DNA from: a virus
IMG/VR virus record: IMGVR_UViG_3300021379_000425
Coordinates: 1 to 64,000 of that record
Length of the DNA stretch: 64,000 bases
Strand: one strand, 5' to 3'
Shown here piece by piece: positions 3,001 to 62,042 of this stretch. Position 1 is the stretch's first letter; every line of letters begins with the position of its first letter. The translations under genes and the position numbers were made by a program. Below the pieces are notes generated by a model that had not been told where the DNA came from, did not search any database, and saw nothing but the letters and a program-made list of their open reading frames with translations.

Positions 3001-6000
3001 ATTAATGATAGACCATGACCCCGATTATGGCAGTCAGTTTACTAACATACCACCATTAATGTTGTACAATCCGTTTGGTGTGCAAGGCACAGAATCTCCT
3101 GCATTTGTGAGGCGAAGTCTCCCGTATCAACCTCAAATGTTTATCGACACAACACCGGGTATGACTACCAATATACCGTGGTGGAGTATAGCACATAGAG
3201 TAGGACCGGATGATAGCACTGCGTATGGTTTTAGGCATTTGACACATCATAAATTTGACAATTATTACGAATTCATTAGAGCAAATGCGGGAAGTATCGC
3301 TACACAAATTACACTAGCGGGATACCCAAGTACCCATCCCGATGTATATTCAAGTATTTTAGAAAATGTTAGCGTGAATCCAGTATGTACTGTGGTGTCT
3401 GTGACTAGCACAACAATCACAGTTGACGATGCGAGAGGATTCCCTAAAGTTCCTTACTACGGTAATAAGTTAGTTTACACCGATGCGAATGGTGTAAGAC
3501 GCACTCACACTTACACTGAAAGAAGTGGATTAGATAGTACAAATATGAACAAACCTAAACTATTCACAATTACAGCAAAGAGTAGTTTTACATCCAATTT
3601 GACTGCTGGTACTAAATTAAGATTAACTCGTGCATATGACAGTAGACCTGCTTTCAATATACTCAAAGATTCACAAGCGAGTATGATTACTAGAGTGCTT
3701 CCACAAATGCTTCAAGGTAGTAGAGATACAAACAGTCTACACTTAGCAGACGCTTTCTTATGTCTATGGCATCCTAATTTGGGAAGACCTCATACATTCT
3801 ATTCCGATGCATCTCGTACATGGTTGAACCCACTTACAGACAGGGCAATCAATAAAGAACCATTGAATTCAATGCCGGAACATTTTGAGACTATACACTA
3901 CCACGATGCTACCTACTATGCAAGCACAGGTCCTTTCGGTATGGAAAGAAAAACACCTCACCCTGTCTACAAGAAAGCGGCTGATGTAGCATCAAACGCC
4001 GTACAATATTCTTCACATGTAGTAGCAACAAAGACAATTACAGTAAACAATGCGTTCTCTATTAGTGACGGTGATAATTTCATACTTGATGGTAGAGTAT
4101 ACACCGTTAACGGTGCGGTCAGCGGTGGAACAACAGTAGTTGTTGATGAAGTACTTCCTAATGAAATCACAAGTGGTTCTTACATATTACTTGGTGGTGA
4201 CGGTACTGCCGCTACAACCGCTACAATCATAGGTACATTTACTGGTGGTTTATCTTCTGCTGAATATACATTTCAAGGAAATGTAACTGGTGATGACGCA
4301 GGAACTAGATATACGATGTTGAACATGTTTTGGCCCTGTGGTTCTCGTGGTGGTCCACAAGTTAGTAGATTAGACGGATATGGTTTTGTTTCAACATCGT
4401 GGAGTAAACCTAGAAATTACAATGTAGGTCCTGTATGGCAAAATGATGGCGGTGGTATTGATATTGCAGGATATGACGGCGATGGCGATGCAGATGATAT
4501 AACAACAAGACCATTTGGATATAGATTTGGACTAAGACAACCGTATAATAAACCACAGTGGTCCACATATGGTGTCCGTTCATTTATCGAGAATGCTGTA
4601 ACATCTACTAACATATCATCCGGTTATCCTCATGGTCCACTGGTTCAGCAAGAAACTGAAACATGGACATACGCTGGTGGCTCAAGTATCTCTAATGCTA
4701 CTTATCCTAATACATATGTCGGTATTATGGAAAGGCAAACTAACTTTAGCGGTATGCTAGGTGTTGACAAGTACGAGTGGCAAGTAAGATACAGTGAAGG
4801 TACAAGATTCACAAGACCATTTGGTTGCCCTGTAAGAACTTTGAGAAACTTTTCAACTGTAATTAGAGATTGGTGGGGCGACCACAATGGTAAGAATCTT
4901 GATATGATAGAGGAAGCAATATCGTATTACCTAGTTGACTGGTGGGGTAACACTCGTGGTGAAGATGTACGCCGACACCCTGTAAGAGCGTTTGGTATAC
5001 GCCCGTCATGGGATGCAGGTGATGTTTACGAATACGATAGAGATAACAATAGAACACCGTATGCTAGATTATACAACAACGGTTCTCCTGTTGTTAACTT
5101 GAAGGGTCTAGTAGATTCATCGGGAGATGTTAGTGTATCTAGTGGATACAATGTACCAAGATTCGGCGGTAGACTGAATAATGCTAACAATAACAACACA
5201 GATATTTTGGTTGATGTATACATGCCTACCAACGCTCACCGTGTAGGTGATGATGGTAATGGTAGAGGATTGAGATACCCCACTGCATTTAACGAAGATA
5301 TACTGACCGACTTAGATAAACCCGTACACACTACTGGTGTTGTACTATCTCATCACACCGCAGAACCTATACTCAATGATGGATTCATTAGAGCAAGAAA
5401 CGATGTACTGCAAGCAGATGAAGTGCCTCGTGGTATCAGTGCAAGGCTCAATATAGCGGAAGATGGACTACTCAAGCCGGAGGCAGTAGTCAGTGACCGC
5501 ACAGAAACAATTAGCGGTGAATCGCCTCACAAGGATGCGGTTAGTAGAAGCAGTCCTCGTATCGGTCTTGATACAGAATATGTAGAGGGCGTAGATGAGA
5601 ATATGATTATCATTAACACGGAGGCACACAGCCTACACGCAGATAGAAATGTAGGTCAGCGTGTAATAATGCAGGGTGGATATACCGCAGGCTCACAGAC
5701 GCTAGGTAATTACGATTTGTCGGCTCTCACCTTTGCTGGTAATCCGCAAGGCGGTGCAATGAAGTTGTCACATACATCCAACTTCAACCCGCTCGGCGGT
5801 ACATACATCGCAGAAACCCGTAACTTCGTAGCACCTATCAGCGACAGTGGATGGGGTGCGTTCACCGATGCAACCTGTGATACAAACCACACATCGGGAT
5901 TAACCGATGGTTCATCAACAAGTGTTAGACACATCACAATGGATTCAACTGCAAAATTAGTAGTGGGTATGACAGTAACAGGAACAGGTATCCCTGCAAG

Positions 6001-6718
6001 TGCTACTGTCGCCGCTATCAACAACGCTACATGCTTTACCCTCAGTGCTGATACTACCGCTACCAACAGCAACACCACTCTTGTATTCGGTCCACCGACA
6101 GGAAAAGGAAGTAACCCATATGCTACATCTACATTCGACTCGTCAAGTAGTCAAACAAACATGGTTGACAAGAGCATCAAGTACATGATGCGCCCTGTCC
6201 GTATGTTAGACAAACACCATGTAGAGATGTTTAGACCTAACAACAATCTACACTCTTCTGCGCCTCAATATGGTAGCAACTACTTCTCCGCTACTGGTGG
6301 TGGAAAGTACGGTATGTATCTATACGAAGTGAGCAACGGTAGAGCAACAGGTGGTGGAACATATGTTAGAAGCACCAGCCCTAATGCTAATCCACCATAC
6401 GCCCCAGCGTATGTAATGAGTATCGGTAACAGTGTGACAGTGCCAATAAGCAAAGGTCCTACAATCATCGGTACGGCAGAAAGTAGTTTCGATAACACTG
6501 TGCTAGATAACGAAATCACTCGTGTTATCATGAGCGAAAATACACTACAACATCACAGGTCGGATGCACCTCGTAGGCGTAGTAGCGTACAAGGTGACAA
6601 AAAGCAAGATAGAATGGATTACAGTGTGAAGCCTAGATTCTCTCAAAGTCTACACCAAAAAGGACATAAAGGGGATGTAGACTACAATTCAAATGACCAT
6701 AGCGGTGATGCCTCATGA
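1..6718 (+). CDS. Giant virion structural protein, partial (N-terminus off window)
   Basis: The frame is open from base 2 with no stop before the ATG at 101, so the gene continues off the left edge and the true start is not visible. At least 2,238 residues are present. The protein is rich in Gly, Ser, Thr, Asn and Tyr with few Cys and no recognisable enzyme motif or membrane segment, as in tail, tail-fibre or adhesin proteins. The last 60 residues are basic and polar and look disordered. The stop overlaps the next gene (ATGA), placing it in the late structural operon that ends at 11383. The exact virion role (tail tip, fibre or surface adhesin) is inferred from size and neighbours only. Confidence 0.75.
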   Translation, partial: FPNPVTTPPTKVFVWSKAGVHYYNNYNDSTRKHMTQVHFNGLVDAIDRTRPAGAVGWAGERYSYLNSLRVGTEGYGAGLGAWYPKLGFSPYGSASSAMSTFGHLPHIAPMKLTPESLGPITSVDGNDTLITTPYDWDYNDTSTPSDWDLTYGAYSATGITYGTKPIHLRSTDNVTRSLHHPQGVFSRGFVVVSYEGELALIAKHDRDGIKATGDWLTVVSKTGQSVSASDAIKFAGTARWDERIHNASRFVAPANAGPNVEALIVDDTATPTADEPSAYTLHGSVSADTELVNAEPCFAKTGDIFFDLDESPASIFLTNDGDVERNLITDYDNSDDVWLGHTNAYKLGKRSPAKNFSVEHVVWKRMDGGNLSLPAVNARGMGSVPFITRVDSGTAYETGEKIYGINRFSFETTNSAMFPIIQAQELSHPQIAVQHPIELRNVLSIPNEEMQFAEVQVEDDTGQVHVVEGGSPFGTIVRTFNAVSDRSAEGLAPAVANSGVEPNMKVRLPDPDTIPGNIIVRSGFDRLQAYQNETMGSGGMIRPLSKDSLKHLFTDETKGPRLGGTFGDVNWEHISQSATGEAFPDPTYKGWETATGHAPLESSYELHDRTLFFHVTKCGNTHSHRYPNYYTHSAGITSNDLTAVSYSGTTLTVNANVDASLYDESIQDGRKFLRLYDPVTDRGGVASFTGISSATFIGCVGDADFAELITGDISTFKVVPSYYIPAGSTRFFASRRMRDHAEVSGNSPDMAHTQYFVGGSTELGNAVFSRPKMTPIPLPRMGHHFVNPTMAVLPGHFAHPAYQGLYNKHRAVRSATVQSDEYTIMEEQSLTNLKSDISTTLNNEINPLDGIAVIGSLNATPSGPSDIHGGAFSLMFETKVRYDGYGVLASVGTGGTNNSNGKHILSLEANATYTLNNHFPDPAEVGSYQIIIQPNIHKSQFIGFHSNGPADDLPDGTVEELTSQQVGLVVGIEYSTDRVDLILAEATMADTRGCEVFINELMIDHDPDYGSQFTNIPPLMLYNPFGVQGTESPAFVRRSLPYQPQMFIDTTPGMTTNIPWWSIAHRVGPDDSTAYGFRHLTHHKFDNYYEFIRANAGSIATQITLAGYPSTHPDVYSSILENVSVNPVCTVVSVTSTTITVDDARGFPKVPYYGNKLVYTDANGVRRTHTYTERSGLDSTNMNKPKLFTITAKSSFTSNLTAGTKLRLTRAYDSRPAFNILKDSQASMITRVLPQMLQGSRDTNSLHLADAFLCLWHPNLGRPHTFYSDASRTWLNPLTDRAINKEPLNSMPEHFETIHYHDATYYASTGPFGMERKTPHPVYKKAADVASNAVQYSSHVVATKTITVNNAFSISDGDNFILDGRVYTVNGAVSGGTTVVVDEVLPNEITSGSYILLGGDGTAATTATIIGTFTGGLSSAEYTFQGNVTGDDAGTRYTMLNMFWPCGSRGGPQVSRLDGYGFVSTSWSKPRNYNVGPVWQNDGGGIDIAGYDGDGDADDITTRPFGYRFGLRQPYNKPQWSTYGVRSFIENAVTSTNISSGYPHGPLVQQETETWTYAGGSSISNATYPNTYVGIMERQTNFSGMLGVDKYEWQVRYSEGTRFTRPFGCPVRTLRNFSTVIRDWWGDHNGKNLDMIEEAISYYLVDWWGNTRGEDVRRHPVRAFGIRPSWDAGDVYEYDRDNNRTPYARLYNNGSPVVNLKGLVDSSGDVSVSSGYNVPRFGGRLNNANNNNTDILVDVYMPTNAHRVGDDGNGRGLRYPTAFNEDILTDLDKPVHTTGVVLSHHTAEPILNDGFIRARNDVLQADEVPRGISARLNIAEDGLLKPEAVVSDRTETISGESPHKDAVSRSSPRIGLDTEYVEGVDENMIIINTEAHSLHADRNVGQRVIMQGGYTAGSQTLGNYDLSALTFAGNPQGGAMKLSHTSNFNPLGGTYIAETRNFVAPISDSGWGAFTDATCDTNHTSGLTDGSSTSVRHITMDSTAKLVVGMTVTGTGIPASATVAAINNATCFTLSADTTATNSNTTLVFGPPTGKGSNPYATSTFDSSSSQTNMVDKSIKYMMRPVRMLDKHHVEMFRPNNNLHSSAPQYGSNYFSATGGGKYGMYLYEVSNGRATGGGTYVRSTSPNANPPYAPAYVMSIGNSVTVPISKGPTIIGTAESSFDNTVLDNEITRVIMSENTLQHHRSDAPRRRSSVQGDKKQDRMDYSVKPRFSQSLHQKGHKGDVDYNSNDHSGDAS

Positions 6719-11608: not shown

Positions 11609-13114
11609 TCATTGCGCTGGTCTTCTTGCTACAATGTCATCAATTCTTAGGATGGCGTTAGTAACTTCTGCGGCACTCAATACTGCTTGCCTTACCAGTG
11701 ATAGAGGTTCAACTACTCCTTGCTCTAATAGGTCTAATACGCCGCCATCTTTGACATTTGGACCGACATTAGGATTACCTTGTAGAATCTCGTGTCTCAT
11801 GGCTAGAATGGTATCTAGTGGGTCATGTCCAGCATTCTCAGCAACGGTAGCAGGAATCACCTCTAAAGCGTCAGCAAACGCCTCAATAGCCATTTGCGCC
11901 CTACCACCTATCTGTGCCGCATGATTTCGTAGGTGCATAGCCATACGAGCGTATGCGTTACCTCCACCGACTACAATGCTCTTGTTTTTAATTACCAGTG
12001 AAACAACACCCAAAGCGTCATCAAACCCACGCTCGACTTCTTCTAGTGTGTGAGATGTAGCACCACGCAGTACAAGTGTAGCCTCTTGGCTCTCTTCTTC
12101 ACTGCTTACAAATAGATACCAAACATCATTCTTTCTCTCACGCTCAATTGTTACATCAGCGCACCACTCGAAGTCATCCGGTGTTTGTATGATAGGTAGG
12201 TTAGTAGCACGACTCAATGCACGAAGAGAAGACTCCGGTACACGCCTTACTACCATGATGTTGTGCTTCTTCAAGAAAGTGCATACAACATCGTTGACAT
12301 TATCTCTAGCAAAGACTACACCACCGTTAGGCATTGCCTCCACTATTGGTTTACAACTAGCAATCAAGTCAGCCTTTCCTGCTTTCTTGTATGTTTGATA
12401 TGATTCTACATTGACTTGCAGTTGAATGTTTTCTTCACTCTTCTCACTGTCCAGTCCTGCATTGATTAGCACCATCTTTGAGTATGAGTTGTCACCCTCA
12501 AGTACGAAGTCTTTGTTGACTATAACACCATCAAATAGTGTTGAGTCCTCTAGTGAGCCACCGGGGAAGGATACTACCTTCACACTCTCAGCGTCACCTG
12601 CTTTCTTGACCGCATCTACACACAATGCAGATACATACTCAATAGCACTCTCTAGTGTTTTACCAGTGATTGCAGTACGAGCGATTGATGTCAAGTCTTC
12701 ATCAGTGCCACCTTTAATGGCAATCTCATCTTTTAGATAGTTTACAGCCATCTGCGCCGCCTCATGATAACCACGACAAATGACATTCGGGTGTAGACCC
12801 TTTTCAAACAACATTTCACTGTTACCGAGTAGTTGACCCGACAACACGACTGTACTCGTTGTACCGTCATAGCAAAGCGATTCTTGTGTCTTTGCTACTT
12901 CTGCAATCATCTTTCCACCCGGATGTGATACATCTAATTCTCTCAATATGGTAGCACCATCGTTGGTAACAATAACATTGCCACCACCGTCTACCATCAT
13001 CTTGTCCATACCCATAGGACCGAGTGTAGACTTTACTGTGTCTGCTACACCTTTAGCCGCCCTTATGTTATGTATCTGCGCTTTTCCACTTCCTTTCTTC
13101 TCCTGTTCTGCCAT
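11609..13114 (-). CDS. Group II chaperonin (thermosome subunit)
   Basis: A 501-residue archaeal/eukaryotic-type chaperonin, expected to form a double-ring ATP-driven folding chamber. Visible motifs: LGPMGMDKMM (31-40), NDGATIL (51-57), DGTTS (83-87) and the late GGGNAYARMA nucleotide-site block. The family is usually about 540-550 residues, so this is a compact member. The usual GDGTT Gly is Tyr, while the Asp is kept. I chose the ATG at 13114 because GGTGA sits 6 bases upstream; an ATG at 13126 also exists. It follows the exonuclease directly in an operon with the helicase. A likely client is a virion protein (compare phage GroEL-like proteins), which is inference. Confidence 0.93.
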   Translation of the reverse strand: MAEQEKKGSGKAQIHNIRAAKGVADTVKSTLGPMGMDKMMVDGGGNVIVTNDGATILRELDVSHPGGKMIAEVAKTQESLCYDGTTSTVVLSGQLLGNSEMLFEKGLHPNVICRGYHEAAQMAVNYLKDEIAIKGGTDEDLTSIARTAITGKTLESAIEYVSALCVDAVKKAGDAESVKVVSFPGGSLEDSTLFDGVIVNKDFVLEGDNSYSKMVLINAGLDSEKSEENIQLQVNVESYQTYKKAGKADLIASCKPIVEAMPNGGVVFARDNVNDVVCTFLKKHNIMVVRRVPESSLRALSRATNLPIIQTPDDFEWCADVTIERERKNDVWYLFVSSEEESQEATLVLRGATSHTLEEVERGFDDALGVVSLVIKNKSIVVGGGNAYARMAMHLRNHAAQIGGRAQMAIEAFADALEVIPATVAENAGHDPLDTILAMRHEILQGNPNVGPNVKDGGVLDLLEQGVVEPLSLVRQAVLSAAEVTNAILRIDDIVARRPAQ

Positions 13115-13119
13115 AGTAT

Positions 13120-13725
13120 TCACCATTTCACTTCTATTTCTATTATGTCTCCTGTTTCTACATTTCGTGACGATATGAAGCCTTCGCTCTTACCAAACTG
13201 ATACAAGTCGTATGTCAGTTTAGCATCGCTTAAACAATATTTCGCCACTCCATCGTAATCACCGGCTCTCCATGCCGTAGGTGCATCCTCACCACTCATC
13301 AACTTATTGTTGTCCAAAGTATGTTTGACAAGCATGGAAAGTGATGTATCGACACTGCCGTATGCAAGTGCCGCTTTTCTAACAAGATGCTTTGTGTCTA
13401 TCACTGCATCTGTTTTACTCATTATATCGCCAGCAGTCCAGCAATCCAGTGCATCTCTAAGCACTGGTAGGTCAAACGATTTTATGTTGTGACCGATTAT
13501 CTGTCCACCTTTTTCGATATGTTCTGCTAAATCTTCTCCTAATGTACGAGGATGCAAAGCCTTCACTGTGTCATCTACATCTAGGGATTTATTGCAGTAA
13601 ATTGTACCGTCTTTACCATTCCATGTAGCCACCACTGATGGCTCAAACATGTGGGTGTTATGCCAACCCCCGATTTCGTGCGAAAAATTTGCCGTTTCTA
13701 TGTCTAATGCTAGTAAGTCGCTCAT
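13120..13725 (-). CDS. DEDD-family 3'-5' exonuclease
   Basis: A 201-residue RNase H-fold exonuclease. Exo I is LALDIETA (D8, E10), Exo II is IGHNIKSFDLP (N80, D85) and Exo III is YCLSD (Y163, D167). That is the full DEDDy set of the PolB-proofreading/DnaQ superfamily as a stand-alone domain. The start overlaps the upstream helicase stop (ATGA). It may serve in proofreading or in processing recombination ends; its partner is not evident from sequence. Confidence 0.85.
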   Translation of the reverse strand: MSDLLALDIETANFSHEIGGWHNTHMFEPSVVATWNGKDGTIYCNKSLDVDDTVKALHPRTLGEDLAEHIEKGGQIIGHNIKSFDLPVLRDALDCWTAGDIMSKTDAVIDTKHLVRKAALAYGSVDTSLSMLVKHTLDNNKLMSGEDAPTAWRAGDYDGVAKYCLSDAKLTYDLYQFGKSEGFISSRNVETGDIIEIEVKW

Positions 13726-53619: not shown

Positions 53620-53973
53620 ATGTCTCCTTTCCAAGACGCATGGAATATTTTGAAATCAAATGTCTATAATGCCGCTAGGCGTTCCACTTTACCAGCATAT
53701 CACCCTGCGATTATGGGTATGATGGAAAGAAGATACTTGACAGGTGAAGCAGGACCATTTGAAGGATTTGAGCCTAGCGATGTCCACCCTAACGAGCAAT
53801 CACCATTTAGAGTAAACAACATAGCAAATATGAGGGCTGATGAACTAAGAGGTAGAATACAACGCCAAAGTGTACCTAAAGTGATGCCGTATACAGATTC
53901 TCCTAGCGATGAAAACATAGACAGGGAATCTCGTGAGCAACTTCTTAGAGAAAGTAGACCGCAATTTAGATGA
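53620..53973 (+). CDS. AWxLLK-peptide protein, 117 residues
   Basis: Begins MSPFQDAWNILKS, a clear member of the shared N-terminal peptide. The rest is Arg/Gln/Pro-rich and probably disordered. First plus-strand gene after the non-coding region. A virion or assembly-associated cargo is guessed from the shared peptide. Confidence 0.55.
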   Translation: MSPFQDAWNILKSNVYNAARRSTLPAYHPAIMGMMERRYLTGEAGPFEGFEPSDVHPNEQSPFRVNNIANMRADELRGRIQRQSVPKVMPYTDSPSDENIDRESREQLLRESRPQFR

Positions 53974-54038
53974 TAATGGTCATTCCAGTGGTCAACCAGT
54001 AAGTTTAACTTCTACACCGCTATCGTCTGTAAGATAGC

Positions 54039-54872
54039 ATGGAAGTCACAGTGTACGAAGTCGGTCCTAGAGATGGTTTGCAGTACCTTGATGACATCGT
54101 GCCGACTAGAGAGAAAGTCAAACTAATCGAGATGCTGTACGACAGTGGGCTTACCAAAATCGAGGAAGTCAGTTTCGCTCACCCCAAACTGCTACCGCAG
54201 ATGGCTGACGCTGAGGCTGTTTTCACAGGGAGTGGGTCTGTGCTGGTGATGAACCAGCGTGGGTTCGAGCGAGCCAATTCGTGCGGTGTCGTGCTAATCA
54301 ATGTGGTTATCAGTCCTTGCGAAGTCTTCAATGTCAAGAATACCGGCAAAACACGGTCCGAGTTGATGACGATGTACAAAACAATGCTGGCGAATCACCC
54401 TAAGCAGTTCGTGAGGGTGTACATCAGCATGGCGTTTGGTAGTCCGTATAGTGGGCAGTTTAGTGCAAGAGAGATTCGTAACTGCGTGAGGGATGCAAGG
54501 ATGCTTGGCGGTACAGTGGTCTTTGCTGATACCGTAGGGGCTGGTACGCCCGATGAAGTAAAGATGATGGCTGACATAGCCAAAGATGAAGGTGTGCGCC
54601 CGGCTTTGCATCTGCATCATAAGGGCGAAGACGAGAAAGCGATTCGTTTGGTGCAGGCGGGGCTGATGGCTGGTATAACTGAGTTTGATAGCAGTATAGC
54701 CGGGCTTGGTGGGTGTCCGTTTGCTGAGGGTAGTGGTGCTAACCTGTCTACCTCGACACTGGTGCGTCATTTACATGCATGGGGCTTTGAGACAGGCGTT
54801 GACGAGAAAAAGTTAATTGCCGCTGAAAAATTCGTTAATTATTTTAGTCGTGACTCCATCCCAGCCCCATGA
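54039..54872 (+). CDS. HMG-CoA lyase-like DRE-TIM metallolyase
   Basis: A 277-residue enzyme. EVGPRDGLQ (R11, D12), IEEVSFAHPKLLPQMAD, HLH (H191, H193), AGLGGCPFAEG (C226) and N235 match the catalytic and metal-binding residues of HMG-CoA lyase, which splits HMG-CoA into acetyl-CoA and acetoacetate. The usual HxHDT is HLHHK, and the middle is diverged, so substrate specificity may differ. Visibly GC-richer than its neighbours, suggesting acquisition from a cell. The stop overlaps the next gene (ATGA). A likely auxiliary metabolic gene. Confidence 0.82.
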   Translation: MEVTVYEVGPRDGLQYLDDIVPTREKVKLIEMLYDSGLTKIEEVSFAHPKLLPQMADAEAVFTGSGSVLVMNQRGFERANSCGVVLINVVISPCEVFNVKNTGKTRSELMTMYKTMLANHPKQFVRVYISMAFGSPYSGQFSAREIRNCVRDARMLGGTVVFADTVGAGTPDEVKMMADIAKDEGVRPALHLHHKGEDEKAIRLVQAGLMAGITEFDSSIAGLGGCPFAEGSGANLSTSTLVRHLHAWGFETGVDEKKLIAAEKFVNYFSRDSIPAP

Positions 54873-55099
54873 GCGCATTTGACAAGGCGTGGAGTTTACT
54901 CAAGCAACAGCCAATGATAGGCGACCCGGAAGGACCTTTGGCACAAGCACTGGCTAGAGCAAGGCAACAACCAAAGCCAAAACCTTTGCAGATAACCAAT
55001 CTACCGCCTAAAGAGCCTCAAATGGTGCAGACTCAACTGCCAGCCGAACTAACTCAAGGCGCACATGAGACACCTTTCAAGATATTCGGTCAGCAGTGA
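54869..55099 (+). CDS. AWxLLK-peptide protein, 76 residues
   Basis: Begins MSAFDKAWSLLKQ, nearly identical to the tag at 34704. The rest is Pro/Gln-rich and disordered-looking. Translationally coupled to the lyase, so it could be its partner or an adaptor (inference). Confidence 0.6.
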   Translation: MSAFDKAWSLLKQQPMIGDPEGPLAQALARARQQPKPKPLQITNLPPKEPQMVQTQLPAELTQGAHETPFKIFGQQ

Positions 55100-55103
55100 T
55101 AGC

Positions 55104-55856
55104 ATGACACCGATGGAGAAGGCTTGGCAATTGCTCAAGGCGACCTATCGCATTGAGGCACAGCGACCAATGTATGCACATTCAGGTAGAAGGGAGTATA
55201 GGCTCTTAGACCAAGACGACAATGTTTTATCAACACTATCAGGTGATTTGTCAAGAAATAACAGTCTTAGTGATATTCACGGACATACTCGTGGAAAATA
55301 CCGTAGACAAGGAAATTATAAAAAATTGATAAATGCTCTATTACAACAAGGTATAGGTATAACTAGTAGTGAAAGAAACGATAAATCTCACCCATTTCAT
55401 GAAAAGTTCATGTCTAATTTACCTAAGAATGTAGATTATGCTGATACATTTAATGATTTTCACCACCTTACACCAATACACTATTCAAAAAAGAAAACCG
55501 CAAGATTCCCAAATAGCGATTTGAATATTCGTGACTACGGCTCTATTCCTATACATCATCTAGGATATGAAAATCCTACTGAAAATAGTAGATTCCACGG
55601 CACAATGGATAATAGAAGATTAACTGAATTTGCTGGTCATTCAATGTTCCCCGGTAGAGTAGCAAATCCTTTAGATTTCGCTAGAGACTGGGCATGGGAA
55701 GATTATGATAAAACTCGAAATGAAAAAGAGAAATTAAATCGTTTACAAGTGGATAACCAACCTGAGACTTTCCAAGCCGGACTCGCTAATTATGACAGGA
55801 ATTTTCTTAAACCGCCTGAATTACAGCAGTTCCTAGATGATATTAACCAAAGATAA
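55104..55856 (+). CDS. AWxLLK-peptide protein, possible GNAT acetyltransferase
   Basis: A 250-residue protein beginning MTPMEKAWQLLKA (ATG 55104; the upstream reading from 55065 lies in the previous gene). Residues about 63-100 (HTRGKYRRQGNYKKLINALL, then GIGITSSERN) look like the acetyl-CoA-binding motif of GNAT enzymes with RxxGxY. The C-terminal half is His/Asp/Arg-rich and unassigned. Fold call is weak. Confidence 0.5.
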   Translation: MTPMEKAWQLLKATYRIEAQRPMYAHSGRREYRLLDQDDNVLSTLSGDLSRNNSLSDIHGHTRGKYRRQGNYKKLINALLQQGIGITSSERNDKSHPFHEKFMSNLPKNVDYADTFNDFHHLTPIHYSKKKTARFPNSDLNIRDYGSIPIHHLGYENPTENSRFHGTMDNRRLTEFAGHSMFPGRVANPLDFARDWAWEDYDKTRNEKEKLNRLQVDNQPETFQAGLANYDRNFLKPPELQQFLDDINQR

Positions 55857-55977: not shown

Positions 55978-57486
55978 TCAGTAGTAGAATTGGGGTGGAG
56001 TATATGTTGGTTTTGCTATATCATCAACATCTTCCTGCATTCCGGTGAGTAATTTGACGACATGTTCCATGTCCGGGTGGATATTTCCTACCATAGTGCC
56101 GTCACTTGTCTCTTCAAATGTGTGATTGCGGTCTAGCACTGCAAGGTCACGGCGCATATCTTCACTGATTTCGTTAGGAAGTTGTAGTTCACCCTTGAGC
56201 ATACGCCATGCTAAGTCCATTGGTTCACTTTTTAGTACTAATTTTTCATTTCCATATTCATCAGTTTCTATTACATAAGCCCCCGATGATAGCATCATCT
56301 GTACTTGTGGGTCATTGCGGTCAACTTTAGTTGGTTCTGCTTGGACATTCAGTGGATTGACAGTATCGTTTTTTGCCCTAATGTTAAGCAAGTTTTGTTG
56401 TAGCGGGTGCTGTGCTTGAAGATATGTAGACCTCGGTGCGCCAGTTTCGGGGTCAATATCCATTCTACCGGCAAAGTTTTGCATCATTCTATCAGCACCT
56501 TGCCTGTAAATGTTTCTTGGATTGAATATATTAGTTAAATTTGCAGAAGATGAAACATCATCTCTACTGATTCTACCGCCCTCAGCGACTCTTTCTACTG
56601 CTCTTTGGTTTATTTCTTGGGCAGATGGTCCTTTTGATTCCATAAATTTAGGTGCAGAAACGAATTCATACTCGGAATCTCTTATTGGATGCCATTCTTT
56701 TGTCTGTCGATGACCAGTATGATGTTCTGCGCCTACTGTTATTAAACCGATACCGCTTCCTCCATCTTCTGCTCTTGATGTTTTATGTCCGATTACATAG
56801 TGTGGTCTATCAATGCCCTCTTTAGGTTCATCAGTGGAGAGTCCGGGTACTTTCAAAACAGGATATTCATTGTATGTTTCATTACCCAGCCTTGTTTCTA
56901 TTTTAGTGTTAAGATACTCTTTCAGTTCGGGATTTTTCTCTAATAAAATATCTGCAACTGCAAGTGCTACATCTTCATGAGAATAACCCTCAAGACCTTT
57001 TGGCATTTCTTGATTCGGTTCTATTCTCTTATCAGCGTTTTTAGAATAATGATTTTTATCTGCTAAACCGACAGTGTGTTTTTTCCCTCTTTTCATTTGT
57101 GCTTTAATATTGTCTATTTGACTGTCATTCCACATGGCATCCCATTTCCATGCTTTCATCAAATTCCAAAGGATGTCCATCGGCTCACCTGTGCGTATTT
57201 CGCTACCGGCTTTTGCCGCTTGAGCCATCTGTTGATTTTGATTCATCATGTTTTGCTGTTGCATTTGTTGGCGGTTTGCCTGTTGCTCACCTACATTTGA
57301 AGCGATTTGTCCAGCAGTTAGAGCCTGTCCAGCCTTCGTGTTGCCAGCCTGTACTGCGACCTTACCTACTTTCTTGGCGGCCTGTTTAGCACCCTGTACT
57401 GCCGCCTGCCTTCCAGCCTGTGTAGCCACTGCACCAGCAACCGCCTTTGCACCGGCGATAAGTGCAGGAGGTATGAACGCCGGCAT
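55978..57486 (-). CDS. Large AWxLLK-peptide protein (two copies)
   Basis: A 502-residue protein. The Ala/Gly/Gln-rich N-terminus (1-95, low complexity, with MQQQNMMNQNQQ) resembles a membrane-interacting or ejection-protein segment. Tag copies are GEPMDILWNLMK (100-111) and SEPMDLAWRMLK (420-431). The middle has His/Gly-rich stretches (AEHHTGHRQTKEWHP). It is the only strongly minus-strand gene in this late block and shares a divergent promoter with 57539. Possibly an internal virion protein; inference. Confidence 0.5.
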   Translation of the reverse strand: MPAFIPPALIAGAKAVAGAVATQAGRQAAVQGAKQAAKKVGKVAVQAGNTKAGQALTAGQIASNVGEQQANRQQMQQQNMMNQNQQMAQAAKAGSEIRTGEPMDILWNLMKAWKWDAMWNDSQIDNIKAQMKRGKKHTVGLADKNHYSKNADKRIEPNQEMPKGLEGYSHEDVALAVADILLEKNPELKEYLNTKIETRLGNETYNEYPVLKVPGLSTDEPKEGIDRPHYVIGHKTSRAEDGGSGIGLITVGAEHHTGHRQTKEWHPIRDSEYEFVSAPKFMESKGPSAQEINQRAVERVAEGGRISRDDVSSSANLTNIFNPRNIYRQGADRMMQNFAGRMDIDPETGAPRSTYLQAQHPLQQNLLNIRAKNDTVNPLNVQAEPTKVDRNDPQVQMMLSSGAYVIETDEYGNEKLVLKSEPMDLAWRMLKGELQLPNEISEDMRRDLAVLDRNHTFEETSDGTMVGNIHPDMEHVVKLLTGMQEDVDDIAKPTYTPPQFYY

Positions 57487-57510
57487 GGAATTACCATAGA
57501 GCGATAATTC

Positions 57511-57520
57511 TTTAAATTAT
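57511..57520. promoter_or_regulatory. Bidirectional TATA promoter
   Basis: TTTAAATTAT lies about 25-30 bases from both ATG 57486 (minus) and ATG 57539 (plus). One AT-rich box could serve both divergent genes, giving near-leaderless transcripts each way. Confidence 0.45.
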
Positions 57521-57538
57521 CCGTAATTAAAACATTTC

Positions 57539-60250
57539 ATGCGTAGGGGCGAAGACATCGAGAAAGCCCCTTCCAAACCTAAATCTTTCAAAGAATATTT
57601 AGAAACAATGCTGTCCGAAACTCCACCGTGGGCTTTGTACGAGGAAGGTGGAGAAACGGCACTTGATTATTCACCTTACGACCACCCTAAACTGAAAAAT
57701 GTTGAAGATAAAAAGAAAGAAGATAAATTAAGAGAGTTGCTATTACATGATGAACCTAGATACCGACCTAGACTTCTTGACCCCGAAAATGCTGTGTTTG
57801 TACCTAAATTAGATGATAGATTAGATTCTGTTATAGATGACCCTTTGATAAACTATGGTAAAAAATTCGCAAAGCCTTTTGAAAATGTAATAAGACAGGG
57901 TAAAAGATTAGTTGACCCTAAATTAATACGACCAAAATCGAGTGTACAAACTACATTACCGCAACATTTTCCTAGACTAACAACCGAAAATCCTTACGAT
58001 GAAGAGGGTAGAATAAAACCCGGTGCTATTGCGCCGATAACTGCTTTTAAACAAATGGGTAGAGATGCTTTCAATAATCTTCTTTCTTACGGTTTGATAC
58101 CCGGATTAACAGTTGATTCCTTAGATTGGGAAGATAGGTCTAATTTACGAGATATGACTCCTGTTCCTGTAAAATCGGGGGCATCATTTGTAGCCCCAGT
58201 AGGTACTTTAGATGCCATAAGGGGTACAATGAATCAATCGGGAGGTCGAGGAAAACCGATTTATGTAGGCATTAGAGGATTTGCACAACCGGAAGATAAA
58301 GCATTCTTGAGAACAGACAGTAGAGAACCAATAGAGGCGGCGGCTTTGGGTCGTATTCCACCGGAAAGATTGGTTTTACCTTTCAATGTAGCACAATCGG
58401 GAAAGGAATTTGGAAGCCCACTTTCTTTTGAAGAATGGCGAAATGCTTCAAAAGGACCTACAACATTTGAAGATTATGTGGCACAAATGAAAGGTCCGAG
58501 GTATCTTCAACATTTACAAGATGCTGGATATACGGAAGAAATAGATGATTACAGGCAACTTTGGAATAGTAGACAAGATATGCAAAGATTAGATTATGAA
58601 AAGTATTTACAAACAATGAAAAATTCTAGTATAAGAACAAATTTATTGAATCAAAGACTGGCTGAATTAGGAGAAGATTTTCCACCCTTAACGGCTGAAA
58701 ATTACCCAATGGAAGGGGGGCAAAGAAATCCTTACCAAACATTATACTACGAACATCTTTACGAAGATAAATTTCCAAAAACTGCCGCTGATACAAAAAA
58801 TACAAGGGTAAAACAGGCTTTAGGTGCTGTGCCGAAAGAATGGAGTCAAAACACTAAATTTAATTTGATGAACCCTGCTTTAAGCGATGCTGAAAGGGAA
58901 GCAATAAGACAAGAATTTCAAGCGAATGCTGACCACGAAATACATATGAATAGTAGACATGATGGCACTGTTCACCCTGCTCAATTCAATAGAATTACAA
59001 GAGGTTTGATGAGCGCAATATATGGTCCACAAGCATCTAATATGATTGATTTCCGAGACAATGTAGGAGATTCTTATTCCGAAAGAGGTGAAAAAATAGG
59101 ATTAGAAATGAATAACCCAGCGGCGGCATCGTTAGGATTACCTAATACATGGAACGCACCTCAATTATTCAATCCTAATTTCAATCCTAATCAATCAGTG
59201 ATAAAAGCACCAAGAATCACTGCATACAGTCCTAGAGAAATAAGAGACATAGCACCCGACCTGCAAGGAATTAGGTATATACCGAAAGAATACTTAGAAT
59301 CCGCTGGTAAGCCAATTAGAGTTCATAGTGGTGGGAAAAGAGGTGTAGGGCAATCCTATGATTGGGAGCAGGATTTACAGCGATTAAAATACGATATACC
59401 GCAAAGTAGTTTTTATTCATGGATGATAAATAAACCAAAACCGCTTACAGGTTTGTTTAGTGAAGAATTTAGAATGATACCCGAATACAATATTGCAGGA
59501 AGAGAGTTAGAATTATCTCCGGTTGAAAGTGGAAATATTGTCGCTGGACAGTTTATGCACCCACCAGTAAAAGAAGCATTAAGAGAACCCGATTATACTG
59601 CACATCTTCACAGACCGATGGCTCTCACTGGAATATTGGAACAGCCTCAATTCATGAGAGAAGGAACTGAGGGGTCTAAAGGATTAGGTGAAGGATTCCA
59701 CTATGGAGAACTAGAGCCGGATTCTGTCGTACAATTAGAACTACCACATAATATACAGCCTATGGAAATGGCTAGTGTTGCTAGGAAAAGAGAGTATGAT
59801 AGACCTAGAAATCAAAGAGAGAAAGACGCAATGAATTGGTTAAGCCACATACCAAGTATGGGTGTGCCTACATCTACTGAATGGTGGAAGCAACAGGGTG
59901 CAACGGAAATGACCGCACCTCAACTTGAACAGGCTGGATTATTCCAAGCCGGTGAACCAATGGACATCGCTATGCAGTTGCTAAAGCGGGAGATGAGTCC
60001 GGAAGCGAAACAACATAAACTCGAATATGACAAGAAGTATGAGTCCACGCCGGAGAGAGTCAAGTATCGTGAAGAGTTGAACCGTGAGCGCAGAAAGCGT
60101 GGTATCTACGGTAGCGGCGACCATATGGATGTCAGTCACACCGAGGGTGGTAAGTTAACTCTCGAAGGTGAACATGAGAATAGAGCGAGACATTTCAAAG
60201 AGCGTGGTACGCTTAGACCTAGCAAAATCGCTGTACGCAAAGACAATTGA
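57539..60250 (+). CDS. Large AWxLLK-peptide protein, 903 residues
   Basis: A soluble charged protein. The tag EPMDIAMQLLK (about 806-816) is followed by a basic tail (ERVKYREELNRERRKRG) and SHTEGGKLTLEGEHENRARH. The N-terminal two-thirds has no recognised catalytic set; a YVGIRGFAQPEDKAF block near 240-255 hints weakly at an enzyme fold. Long, late, and followed by iteron region B. A virion-internal or injected protein is guessed from size and tag. Confidence 0.55.
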   Translation: MRRGEDIEKAPSKPKSFKEYLETMLSETPPWALYEEGGETALDYSPYDHPKLKNVEDKKKEDKLRELLLHDEPRYRPRLLDPENAVFVPKLDDRLDSVIDDPLINYGKKFAKPFENVIRQGKRLVDPKLIRPKSSVQTTLPQHFPRLTTENPYDEEGRIKPGAIAPITAFKQMGRDAFNNLLSYGLIPGLTVDSLDWEDRSNLRDMTPVPVKSGASFVAPVGTLDAIRGTMNQSGGRGKPIYVGIRGFAQPEDKAFLRTDSREPIEAAALGRIPPERLVLPFNVAQSGKEFGSPLSFEEWRNASKGPTTFEDYVAQMKGPRYLQHLQDAGYTEEIDDYRQLWNSRQDMQRLDYEKYLQTMKNSSIRTNLLNQRLAELGEDFPPLTAENYPMEGGQRNPYQTLYYEHLYEDKFPKTAADTKNTRVKQALGAVPKEWSQNTKFNLMNPALSDAEREAIRQEFQANADHEIHMNSRHDGTVHPAQFNRITRGLMSAIYGPQASNMIDFRDNVGDSYSERGEKIGLEMNNPAAASLGLPNTWNAPQLFNPNFNPNQSVIKAPRITAYSPREIRDIAPDLQGIRYIPKEYLESAGKPIRVHSGGKRGVGQSYDWEQDLQRLKYDIPQSSFYSWMINKPKPLTGLFSEEFRMIPEYNIAGRELELSPVESGNIVAGQFMHPPVKEALREPDYTAHLHRPMALTGILEQPQFMREGTEGSKGLGEGFHYGELEPDSVVQLELPHNIQPMEMASVARKREYDRPRNQREKDAMNWLSHIPSMGVPTSTEWWKQQGATEMTAPQLEQAGLFQAGEPMDIAMQLLKREMSPEAKQHKLEYDKKYESTPERVKYREELNRERRKRGIYGSGDHMDVSHTEGGKLTLEGEHENRARHFKERGTLRPSKIAVRKDN

Positions 60251-61072: not shown

Positions 61073-61333
61073 ATGGGTCGCATATTCAAAACCCCTTCCG
61101 ATGACTCTACGGAGGCAACGCTTAGGGCTATGCATACCCAAAATACTCTTGACACATATTACGAAAAAAGTTTAGGATGGATTAGAACCGTAATAATAGG
61201 GTTTATCGCAGTATTGATAACAAGTTTTTATGAATTACAAACAGGAAATTCCGTATGGGAGGGTACAGTAGAATGGTTTTACGGCAAGGTGGAAAATTTA
61301 GCGAATTTCTTATTCGGGTGGTTGTATGGTTGA
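61073..61333 (+). CDS. Single-pass membrane protein, 86 residues
   Basis: A charged N-terminus with a helical segment, then a transmembrane helix (about 35-55: LGWIRTVIIGFIAVLITSFY) and a second amphipathic or membrane-associated aromatic segment at the end. Overlaps the start of the GTPase gene by 8 bases, so the two are probably translated together. Confidence 0.55.
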   Translation: MGRIFKTPSDDSTEATLRAMHTQNTLDTYYEKSLGWIRTVIIGFIAVLITSFYELQTGNSVWEGTVEWFYGKVENLANFLFGWLYG

Positions 61334-62042
61334 ACCAGCAGGTACGGCACTTGTTGGTGCGATGGTTTGGGGAAAAGCGGTCTTCAATTCATACAGGCCA
61401 CGCAAGGTCGGCATTTACGGCGCAGGACTAGTTGGTAAAACTACACTTGACCGCTTTATGACAACTCCGGGTGAAATGGAAGAGATTGATGAAGAAGATA
61501 GAACAACACACCTAAAATTACTGGGTAAATTTCTCTTACCTAAACCGACAAGAAAAAGAGTAGCATGGAAAGGAGAAAAGAGAGTAGTCTTTTCATCCGA
61601 TATAGGTGGACAAGAGAGATTTTGGAATCTATGGATAGATGATATGGTATCAAGACAAGTAGAGGCTGTTGTCTATGTATTTGATGATAGAGCAGTAAAA
61701 GGCGGTGATGATGCATTACAACAGATTGCTGGGTTCAAATATCTAGTAGACGCAATAGTGTACAAGCAGTATCGTTATCGTAGTTTGAAAAGTAAAATTA
61801 AAGGAAAAAGATATTCTCCAAAACTGATTATGTTAGTTGCTAACAAAGCGGATAGGTTCTTTGACGAGACTGCCGCAATGCTTTGGGGGCAAGACAGAAT
61901 AGGAGAACACAAGATATTCGACCCGTTTAGAGATGATTTGATTAGGCTACAAAAGAACGGTATACCTACAAGAAAATCTTTCATGGCTACAAGAATAGGG
62001 TGGAATGTTGAAAATACAATGGTAAGTCTTTTGACAACATAG
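61326..62042 (+). CDS. Ras/Arf-like small GTPase
   Basis: A 238-residue protein. G1 GAGLVGKTT (32-40), a possible G2 Thr near 60, G3 DIGGQERFW (92-100; the DxGGQ form of Arf/Ras), G4 NKAD (173-176), G5-like ATR (221-223). An N-terminal extension of about 25 residues precedes G1. Coupled to the upstream membrane protein and followed by an AbrB-like gene. GTP binding is well supported; function in the virus is unknown, with membrane remodelling or virion assembly as hypotheses. Confidence 0.82.
   Translation: MVEPAGTALVGAMVWGKAVFNSYRPRKVGIYGAGLVGKTTLDRFMTTPGEMEEIDEEDRTTHLKLLGKFLLPKPTRKRVAWKGEKRVVFSSDIGGQERFWNLWIDDMVSRQVEAVVYVFDDRAVKGGDDALQQIAGFKYLVDAIVYKQYRYRSLKSKIKGKRYSPKLIMLVANKADRFFDETAAMLWGQDRIGEHKIFDPFRDDLIRLQKNGIPTRKSFMATRIGWNVENTMVSLLTT

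Follow-up and report, generated by a model that had tools for sequence, protein, structure and literature searches.

A divergent HMG-CoA lyase-like enzyme is widely kept in a lineage of putative magroviruses

HMG-CoA lyase (EC 4.1.3.4), known structurally from human (HMGCL, PDB 2cw6 and 3mp3), Bacillus (1ydo), and Pseudomonas (2ftp), uses Arg41, Glu72, Tyr167, and Cys266 as catalytic residues and Asp42, His233, His235, and Asn275 as metal ligands (PMC6941031). The occurrence of HMGCL in magroviruses is already known: an earlier paper names it, in a single line on leucine degradation, among the auxiliary metabolic genes of these viruses, and calls such genes sporadic (PMC10160649). The gene analyzed here is very probably of the same kind and from the same virus group; it lies in the first 64,000 nucleotides, hereafter the window, of the IMG/VR record IMGVR_UViG_3300021379_000425, which totals 85,252 bases. 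The TIM barrel and the DRE-type metal site of its predicted product are also found in the DRE-TIM synthases (LeuA, citramalate synthase, and homocitrate synthase), which to our knowledge do not carry the GLGGCP cysteine loop seen in the viral enzyme. The positions of the features discussed below are collected in Table 1.

Table 1 Positions of the HMGL gene, its surroundings, and other features, in the window unless a locus is named
Feature	Position	Strand	Remarks
HMG-CoA-lyase-like enzyme, HLHH variant (HMGL)	54039..54872	+	ATG start, 277-aa ORF
Promoter-like element AAGTTTAACTTCTACACC	54001..54018	+	38 nt before the HMGL start codon; exact consensus match
117-aa neighbor	53620..53973	+	begins MSPFQDAWNILK; similar TTTAATAAACACC element upstream
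76-aa protein	54869..55099	+	N-terminal MSAFDKAWSLLK motif; ATG overlaps the HMGL stop (ATGA)
263-aa neighbor	55065..55856	+	same AWxLLK motif
ORFs with AWxLLK-type motif	53620, 54869, 55065, 55978-57486, 57539-60250, 6715		also in loci L002, L004, L119
Divergent spacer between two genes	57487-57538		52 nt, near-palindromic GGATAATTTAAAGAATTATCG
238-aa protein	61326-62042; 5535-6248 in locus L002		GTPase-like motifs GxxxxGKTT, DIGGQERFW, NKADRF
Group II chaperonin (thermosome)	11609-13126		425 bits to Cpn60_TCP1
Minus-strand genes preceded by (GA)CTATTTAAACTGATAAAG	15119, 26113, 30885, 40827, 48952, 50280, 51589	-	element roughly 20-50 nt before the start codon

The window enzyme matches the Pfam family HMGL-like (PF00682) with 79.7 bits (E 3e-22), above the gathering cut-off of 29 bits, and its top NCBIfam family is HMG-CoA lyase (NF004283, 217.7 bits, E 1.9e-64), whereas the runner-up, homocitrate synthase, reaches 27.3 bits. 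Ten diverse viral relatives score 183-227 bits with NF004283 and at most about 32 bits with other families; they and the window enzyme all miss the curated NF004283 cut-off of 246 bits, although it remains their best family by far. With the same ceiling of about 32 bits, the viral members stay far below the cut-offs of the LeuA, citramalate, and homocitrate synthase families (413-950 bits). A sequence search of the PDB returned HMG-CoA lyases as the sole relatives (E to 5.7e-43). The AlphaFold2 model, computed from an alignment of 73 viral and bacterial rows, predicts a TIM barrel with a mean pLDDT of 94.1 and a pTM of 0.92. When this model was compared with known structures by Foldseek, 14 HMG-CoA lyase chains led (E 5.6e-27 to 9.5e-23), with TM-scores up to 0.90 and about 32-36% identity, followed after a gap by LeuA (isopropylmalate synthase, 1.4e-14), so that the modeled fold is nearer to the HMG-CoA lyases than to the synthases. 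Membership among the DRE-TIM synthases was rejected, since the NCBIfam scores and the Foldseek ranking both favor HMG-CoA lyase. The family proposed by the first-pass annotation is hence borne out by PF00682, NF004283, and Foldseek, and the grouping with isopropylmalate or citramalate synthases that it had named as speaking against its proposal did not occur. From sequence and model, we regard the window enzyme as a divergent viral HMGL-family lyase rather than a proven HMG-CoA lyase.

Two further proteins resemble the model. The 4-hydroxy-2-oxovalerate aldolase DmpG has the same barrel, with a Foldseek E value of 1.7e-11 against 5.6e-27 for HMG-CoA lyase; its family scores 21-24 bits in some viral members and is not listed for the window enzyme. 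The sole strong BFVD match is an HMGL-like protein of Klosneuvirus (A0A1V0SKU2, E 5.5e-23, TM 0.87), which differs in its source, a giant eukaryotic virus, and in its 28% identity. An HMGL match was also observed in a record of the Acinetobacter phage MD-2021a (L038), amid genes for acetyl-CoA carboxylase and enoyl-CoA hydratase, and it groups with Pseudomonas rows; given these neighbors and this grouping, that part of the record is probably bacterial chromosome.

The catalytic residues of the human enzyme have their equivalents in R11, E42, Y128, and C226 of the window enzyme (human R41, E72, Y167, and C266), and the metal ligands in D12, H191, H193, and N235 (human D42, H233, H235, and N275); D164 is likewise retained, and the GLGGCP loop is common to the viral enzyme and HMG-CoA lyase. 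R11, D12, H191, H193, C226, and N235 had been picked out from the letters of the sequence, and all of them align with their human counterparts. The whole set of catalytic and metal residues is invariant in 73 of 73 viral rows; that even very divergent members keep the active site intact speaks for a functional lyase.

The viral enzymes depart from HMG-CoA lyase in three regions. HxHD or HxHN is present in nearly all 80 rows of the bacterial comparison, whereas the window enzyme has HLHH. Among the 73 viral rows HLH (H191xH193) is invariant and the residue that follows it varies, being His in 68 and Val, Gly, or Lys in the remainder, never Asp or Asn; the His is therefore not private to this virus. 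All 62 viral loci of our broader IMG/VR scan have H-x-H-H, and the divergent HLHG, HLHK, and HLHV members came from large contigs chosen by terminase or chaperonin similarity. His after HxH may also be a feature of DmpG. The HLHHK string, which the first-pass annotation took for an altered HxH region, is real, but the HxH itself is intact: what has changed is the following residue, together with a 2-residue insertion after it relative to the bacterial enzymes. The bacterial GLQNE motif is missing from most viral members, and a 7-8-residue loop after the second strand is shortened compared with the sampled bacterial enzymes. Because of these three differing regions (GLQNE, HxHDT, and the loop), specificity may have shifted. 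A MAFFT alignment that placed the bacterial HxH two residues downstream had suggested H193/K195 as the metal site; it was rejected in favor of H191/H193, since HLH is invariant even in the HLHG, HLHK, and HLHV members, residue 195 is variable, and the model strand 187-193 terminates at H193.

Besides the chaperonin, the record encodes a family-B DNA polymerase, an ERCC4 nuclease, a clamp-loader-like AAA ATPase, and a SNF2/HARP helicase, and it contains terminase and portal genes. The replication genes lie on the minus strand, opposite the plus-strand morphogenesis side, in agreement with the opposite-strand arrangement of replication and morphogenesis modules described for Magrovirales (PMC12999244). 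The gene content is thus that of a magrovirus, with tailed-virus head genes, a PolB replisome, and opposite-strand modules; the chaperonin is encoded by 17 of 24 HMGL-bearing records. This marine virus very probably infects archaea, and from its gene content we infer a magrovirus of Poseidoniales, in line with the archaeal, Poseidoniales-type virus assumed by the first-pass annotation. No close record and no named magrovirus genome was found in the phage collection searched, and the magrovirus assignment rests on gene content.

Besides the window, no fewer than 62 marine viral loci have an orthologue of the gene: a first alignment-based scan of IMG/VR found 34 and a broader one 62. For an unbiased prevalence, 23 related contigs of 67-107 kb were selected solely by terminase or chaperonin similarity, without regard to HMGL, and 16 of them carry the gene. 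The magrovirus genes called sporadic in PMC10160649 thus stand against a near-core distribution here, a difference that could come in part from sampling and detection. In a first tree, 54 viral rows lie on one side of a fully supported branch opposite 84 bacterial and haloarchaeal rows; in a second, a thinned and more varied set of 28 viral rows makes up a single clade apart from 47 bacterial and haloarchaeal rows (100/100). Both trees are midpoint-rooted, and their cellular rows are mainly the most similar bacteria, with no Poseidoniales sequences among them, so that the phylogeny with bacterial and Poseidoniales lyases proposed at the outset is realized on its bacterial side. A search of genome contigs for Poseidoniales homologues returned none, and a second search gave only bacteria among the best 80 matches listed.

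Purifying selection on the viral gene is strong, with dN/dS of 0.016-0.158 between close viral pairs. The elevated GC content from which a recent host origin had been read is real in this genome (0.505, the neighboring ORFs averaging 0.426); across 31 viral loci, however, the excess averages just +0.010 and is positive in 21, and the gene mostly tracks the GC of its genome, the excess being peculiar to the window genome. Recent host capture as judged by GC was rejected because the excess is not general over these loci. The single clade of 28 diverse rows, the carriage in 16 of 23 contigs, the dN/dS of 0.02-0.16, and the GC tracking together point to a long history of the gene in these viruses. 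The sister of the window gene in the tree is L178, and since both have lost the small upstream gene described below, virus-virus exchange would be a better account of the local GC excess than recent host capture.

Directly upstream of HMGL, 42 of the 62 loci have a small ORF with a C-terminal G[ML]R[RK] motif, whose stop overlaps the HMGL start (xTGA) in 40 loci. Where measured (20 loci), the protein has 51-63 aa and an N-terminal hydrophobic stretch with a 19-residue Kyte-Doolittle peak of 1.6-2.9, and its gene has a dN/dS of 0-0.15; size, hydrophobicity, and selection together suggest a genuine single-TM gene. When this small TM protein was itself used for a search, 13 of 13 full-length matches had HMGL directly after them. 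The TM gene is absent before HMGL in the window and at loci L004/L005, L193-L195, and L206.

A TATA-like element close to AAGTTTAATTTCTACACCG precedes the HMGL unit in 46 of the 62 loci and in the window, where it is the single match at up to 3 mismatches in 64 kb (0.29 expected). Where there is no TM gene (the window and the loci listed above), it sits 31-38 nt ahead of HMGL; elsewhere the TM gene follows it after about 33 nt. Six stretches among all IMG/VR contigs matched a 20-nt form of the element, and all six belong to HMGL operons. The element is distinct from GACTATTTAAACTGATAAAG, which is common before minus-strand genes. The distance to the gene is what would be expected of an archaeal TATA-type promoter whose message is leaderless or has a short leader, and we consider the element a putative promoter. 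The alternative that it is coding sequence, read in frame as KFNFYTALG in TM-bearing loci, is disfavored, since many loci lack a preceding start codon and in the window and L004/L005 the element directly precedes HMGL.

A gene with an AWxLLK motif comes next in the window and several relatives, and its start overlaps the HMGL stop; from the ATGA overlap in the window, the HMGL and 76-aa genes are probably translationally coupled. The motif, [FM][DEQ]xAWx[IL][LM]K, is mostly N-terminal and common to unrelated proteins; among 103 ORFs it occurs 6 times, whereas shuffling predicts 0.05. Five of the six ORFs flank the HMGL gene, and the motif is possibly a virion-targeting or assembly tag. The 238-aa protein, whose gene is kept downstream of HMGL in several loci, resembles Ras/Arf/Roc GTPases, with a Pfam Roc match (E 0.0064) under the family cut-off. 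As to other candidate control regions, the (GA)CTATTTAAACTGATAAAG element is a probable early promoter of the virus, and the 52-nt near-palindromic spacer is perhaps a two-way promoter.

Archaea build their isoprenoid lipids from HMG-CoA, which makes it the obvious substrate for such an enzyme in an archaeon. On balance, we think it probable that the window enzyme is an active divalent-metal acyl-CoA carbon-carbon lyase that cleaves HMG-CoA and withdraws a lipid precursor from the host. D12, H191, H193, and N235 would hold the metal, and R11, E42, Y128, and C226 would carry out the cleavage of HMG-CoA, which in an archaeal host is the most likely substrate, into acetyl-CoA and acetoacetate. 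Removal of HMG-CoA from the mevalonate route during infection would leave less new isoprenoid membrane lipid, while acetyl-CoA would be returned for energy. Expression would be driven by the gene's own promoter-like element, which differs from the one before many genes of the minus strand; most relatives would co-produce the enzyme with the tiny single-TM protein, which may, as a guess, hold it at the membrane. Neither thiolase, CoA transferase, nor HMG-CoA reductase was found in 25 related viral records, nor any viral gene using acetoacetyl-CoA or mevalonate; the enzyme would therefore work stand-alone on host metabolites.

A shifted substrate is a serious rival to HMG-CoA cleavage, given the altered loops and the haloarchaeal neighbors, and we allow it a modest chance: the lyase would act on a different 3-hydroxy-acyl-CoA, such as citramalyl-CoA, a 3-methylmalate-type ester, or a longer HMG-like ester, and the changed loop and lost GLQNE would mark the new specificity. 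The HLHH in place of HxHD/N, the 2-residue insertion, the loss of 'NE' in the viral clade, the consistent lack of Asp or Asn after HxH in the 73 viral rows, and the scores of the viral members, all under the HMG-CoA lyase cut-off, are in its favor. So are two genes annotated as HMG-CoA lyase on Haloferax and Natrinema plasmids (L125 and L126), which stand in an operon with a CoA transferase on one side and an isopropylmalate dehydratase on the other; these neighbors suggest that the haloarchaeal family members take a substrate other than HMG-CoA. Yet E42, Y128, D164, C226, and N235 are retained, HMG-CoA lyases account for every top match by sequence and by structure, and no viral gene was found that would supply such a substrate, thiolase and CoA transferase being absent. 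The same reaction could instead complete leucine breakdown to acetyl-CoA and acetoacetate in a peptide-eating host during infection, as the placement of magrovirus HMGCL under leucine degradation implies (PMC10160649); we hold this to be unlikely, as no further leucine-pathway gene adjoins HMGL in the loci read and a lone last step would be useful only where the host lyase is limiting.

That the protein is no longer an enzyme, and serves as a structural or regulatory part of a virion or membrane complex with the small TM partner, would agree with the location of the gene, flanked by AWxLLK-motif proteins at the opening of the cluster on the plus strand, the morphogenesis side, and with its pairing with a TM protein in relatives, but a scaffold needs none of the active-site residues that all viral rows preserve, and we rate it very unlikely. 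A recent host or bacterial gene capture or an assembly chimera, unrelated to the biology of the virus, could account for the GC excess of the window gene; it is hardly credible, being already contradicted by the 62 viral loci, the single viral clade, the gene's own upstream element, a conserved partner, and a GC content that elsewhere mostly tracks the genome. As an improbable extension of HMG-CoA cleavage, the operon of TM protein and HMGL might attack the host membrane itself, a membrane-held lyase destroying HMG-CoA, stopping isoprenoid lipid synthesis, and so weakening or arresting the archaeal envelope. Were this true, it would parallel, in archaea, the lysis of cells by phages that block wall-precursor synthesis; we know of no described lysis mechanism for the magrovirus group.

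In the part of the magrovirus literature searched, where earlier mention is possible, we found neither the viral subfamily nor its near-core distribution, upstream element, or TM partner described. Compared with the earlier listing of HMGCL (PMC10160649), what appears new is the pairing of the TM protein with HMGL, the upstream element, the residue signature, the single-clade tree, and the near-core distribution, of which the pairing and the signature could have been mentioned before. The proposal can be tested at the bench without virus culture, by expressing and assaying the enzyme. The retention of the lyase by most of these viruses, the strong selection on it, its own upstream element, and its membrane partner suggest that controlling HMG-CoA, the point of entry into archaeal membrane lipid synthesis, is important during infection.
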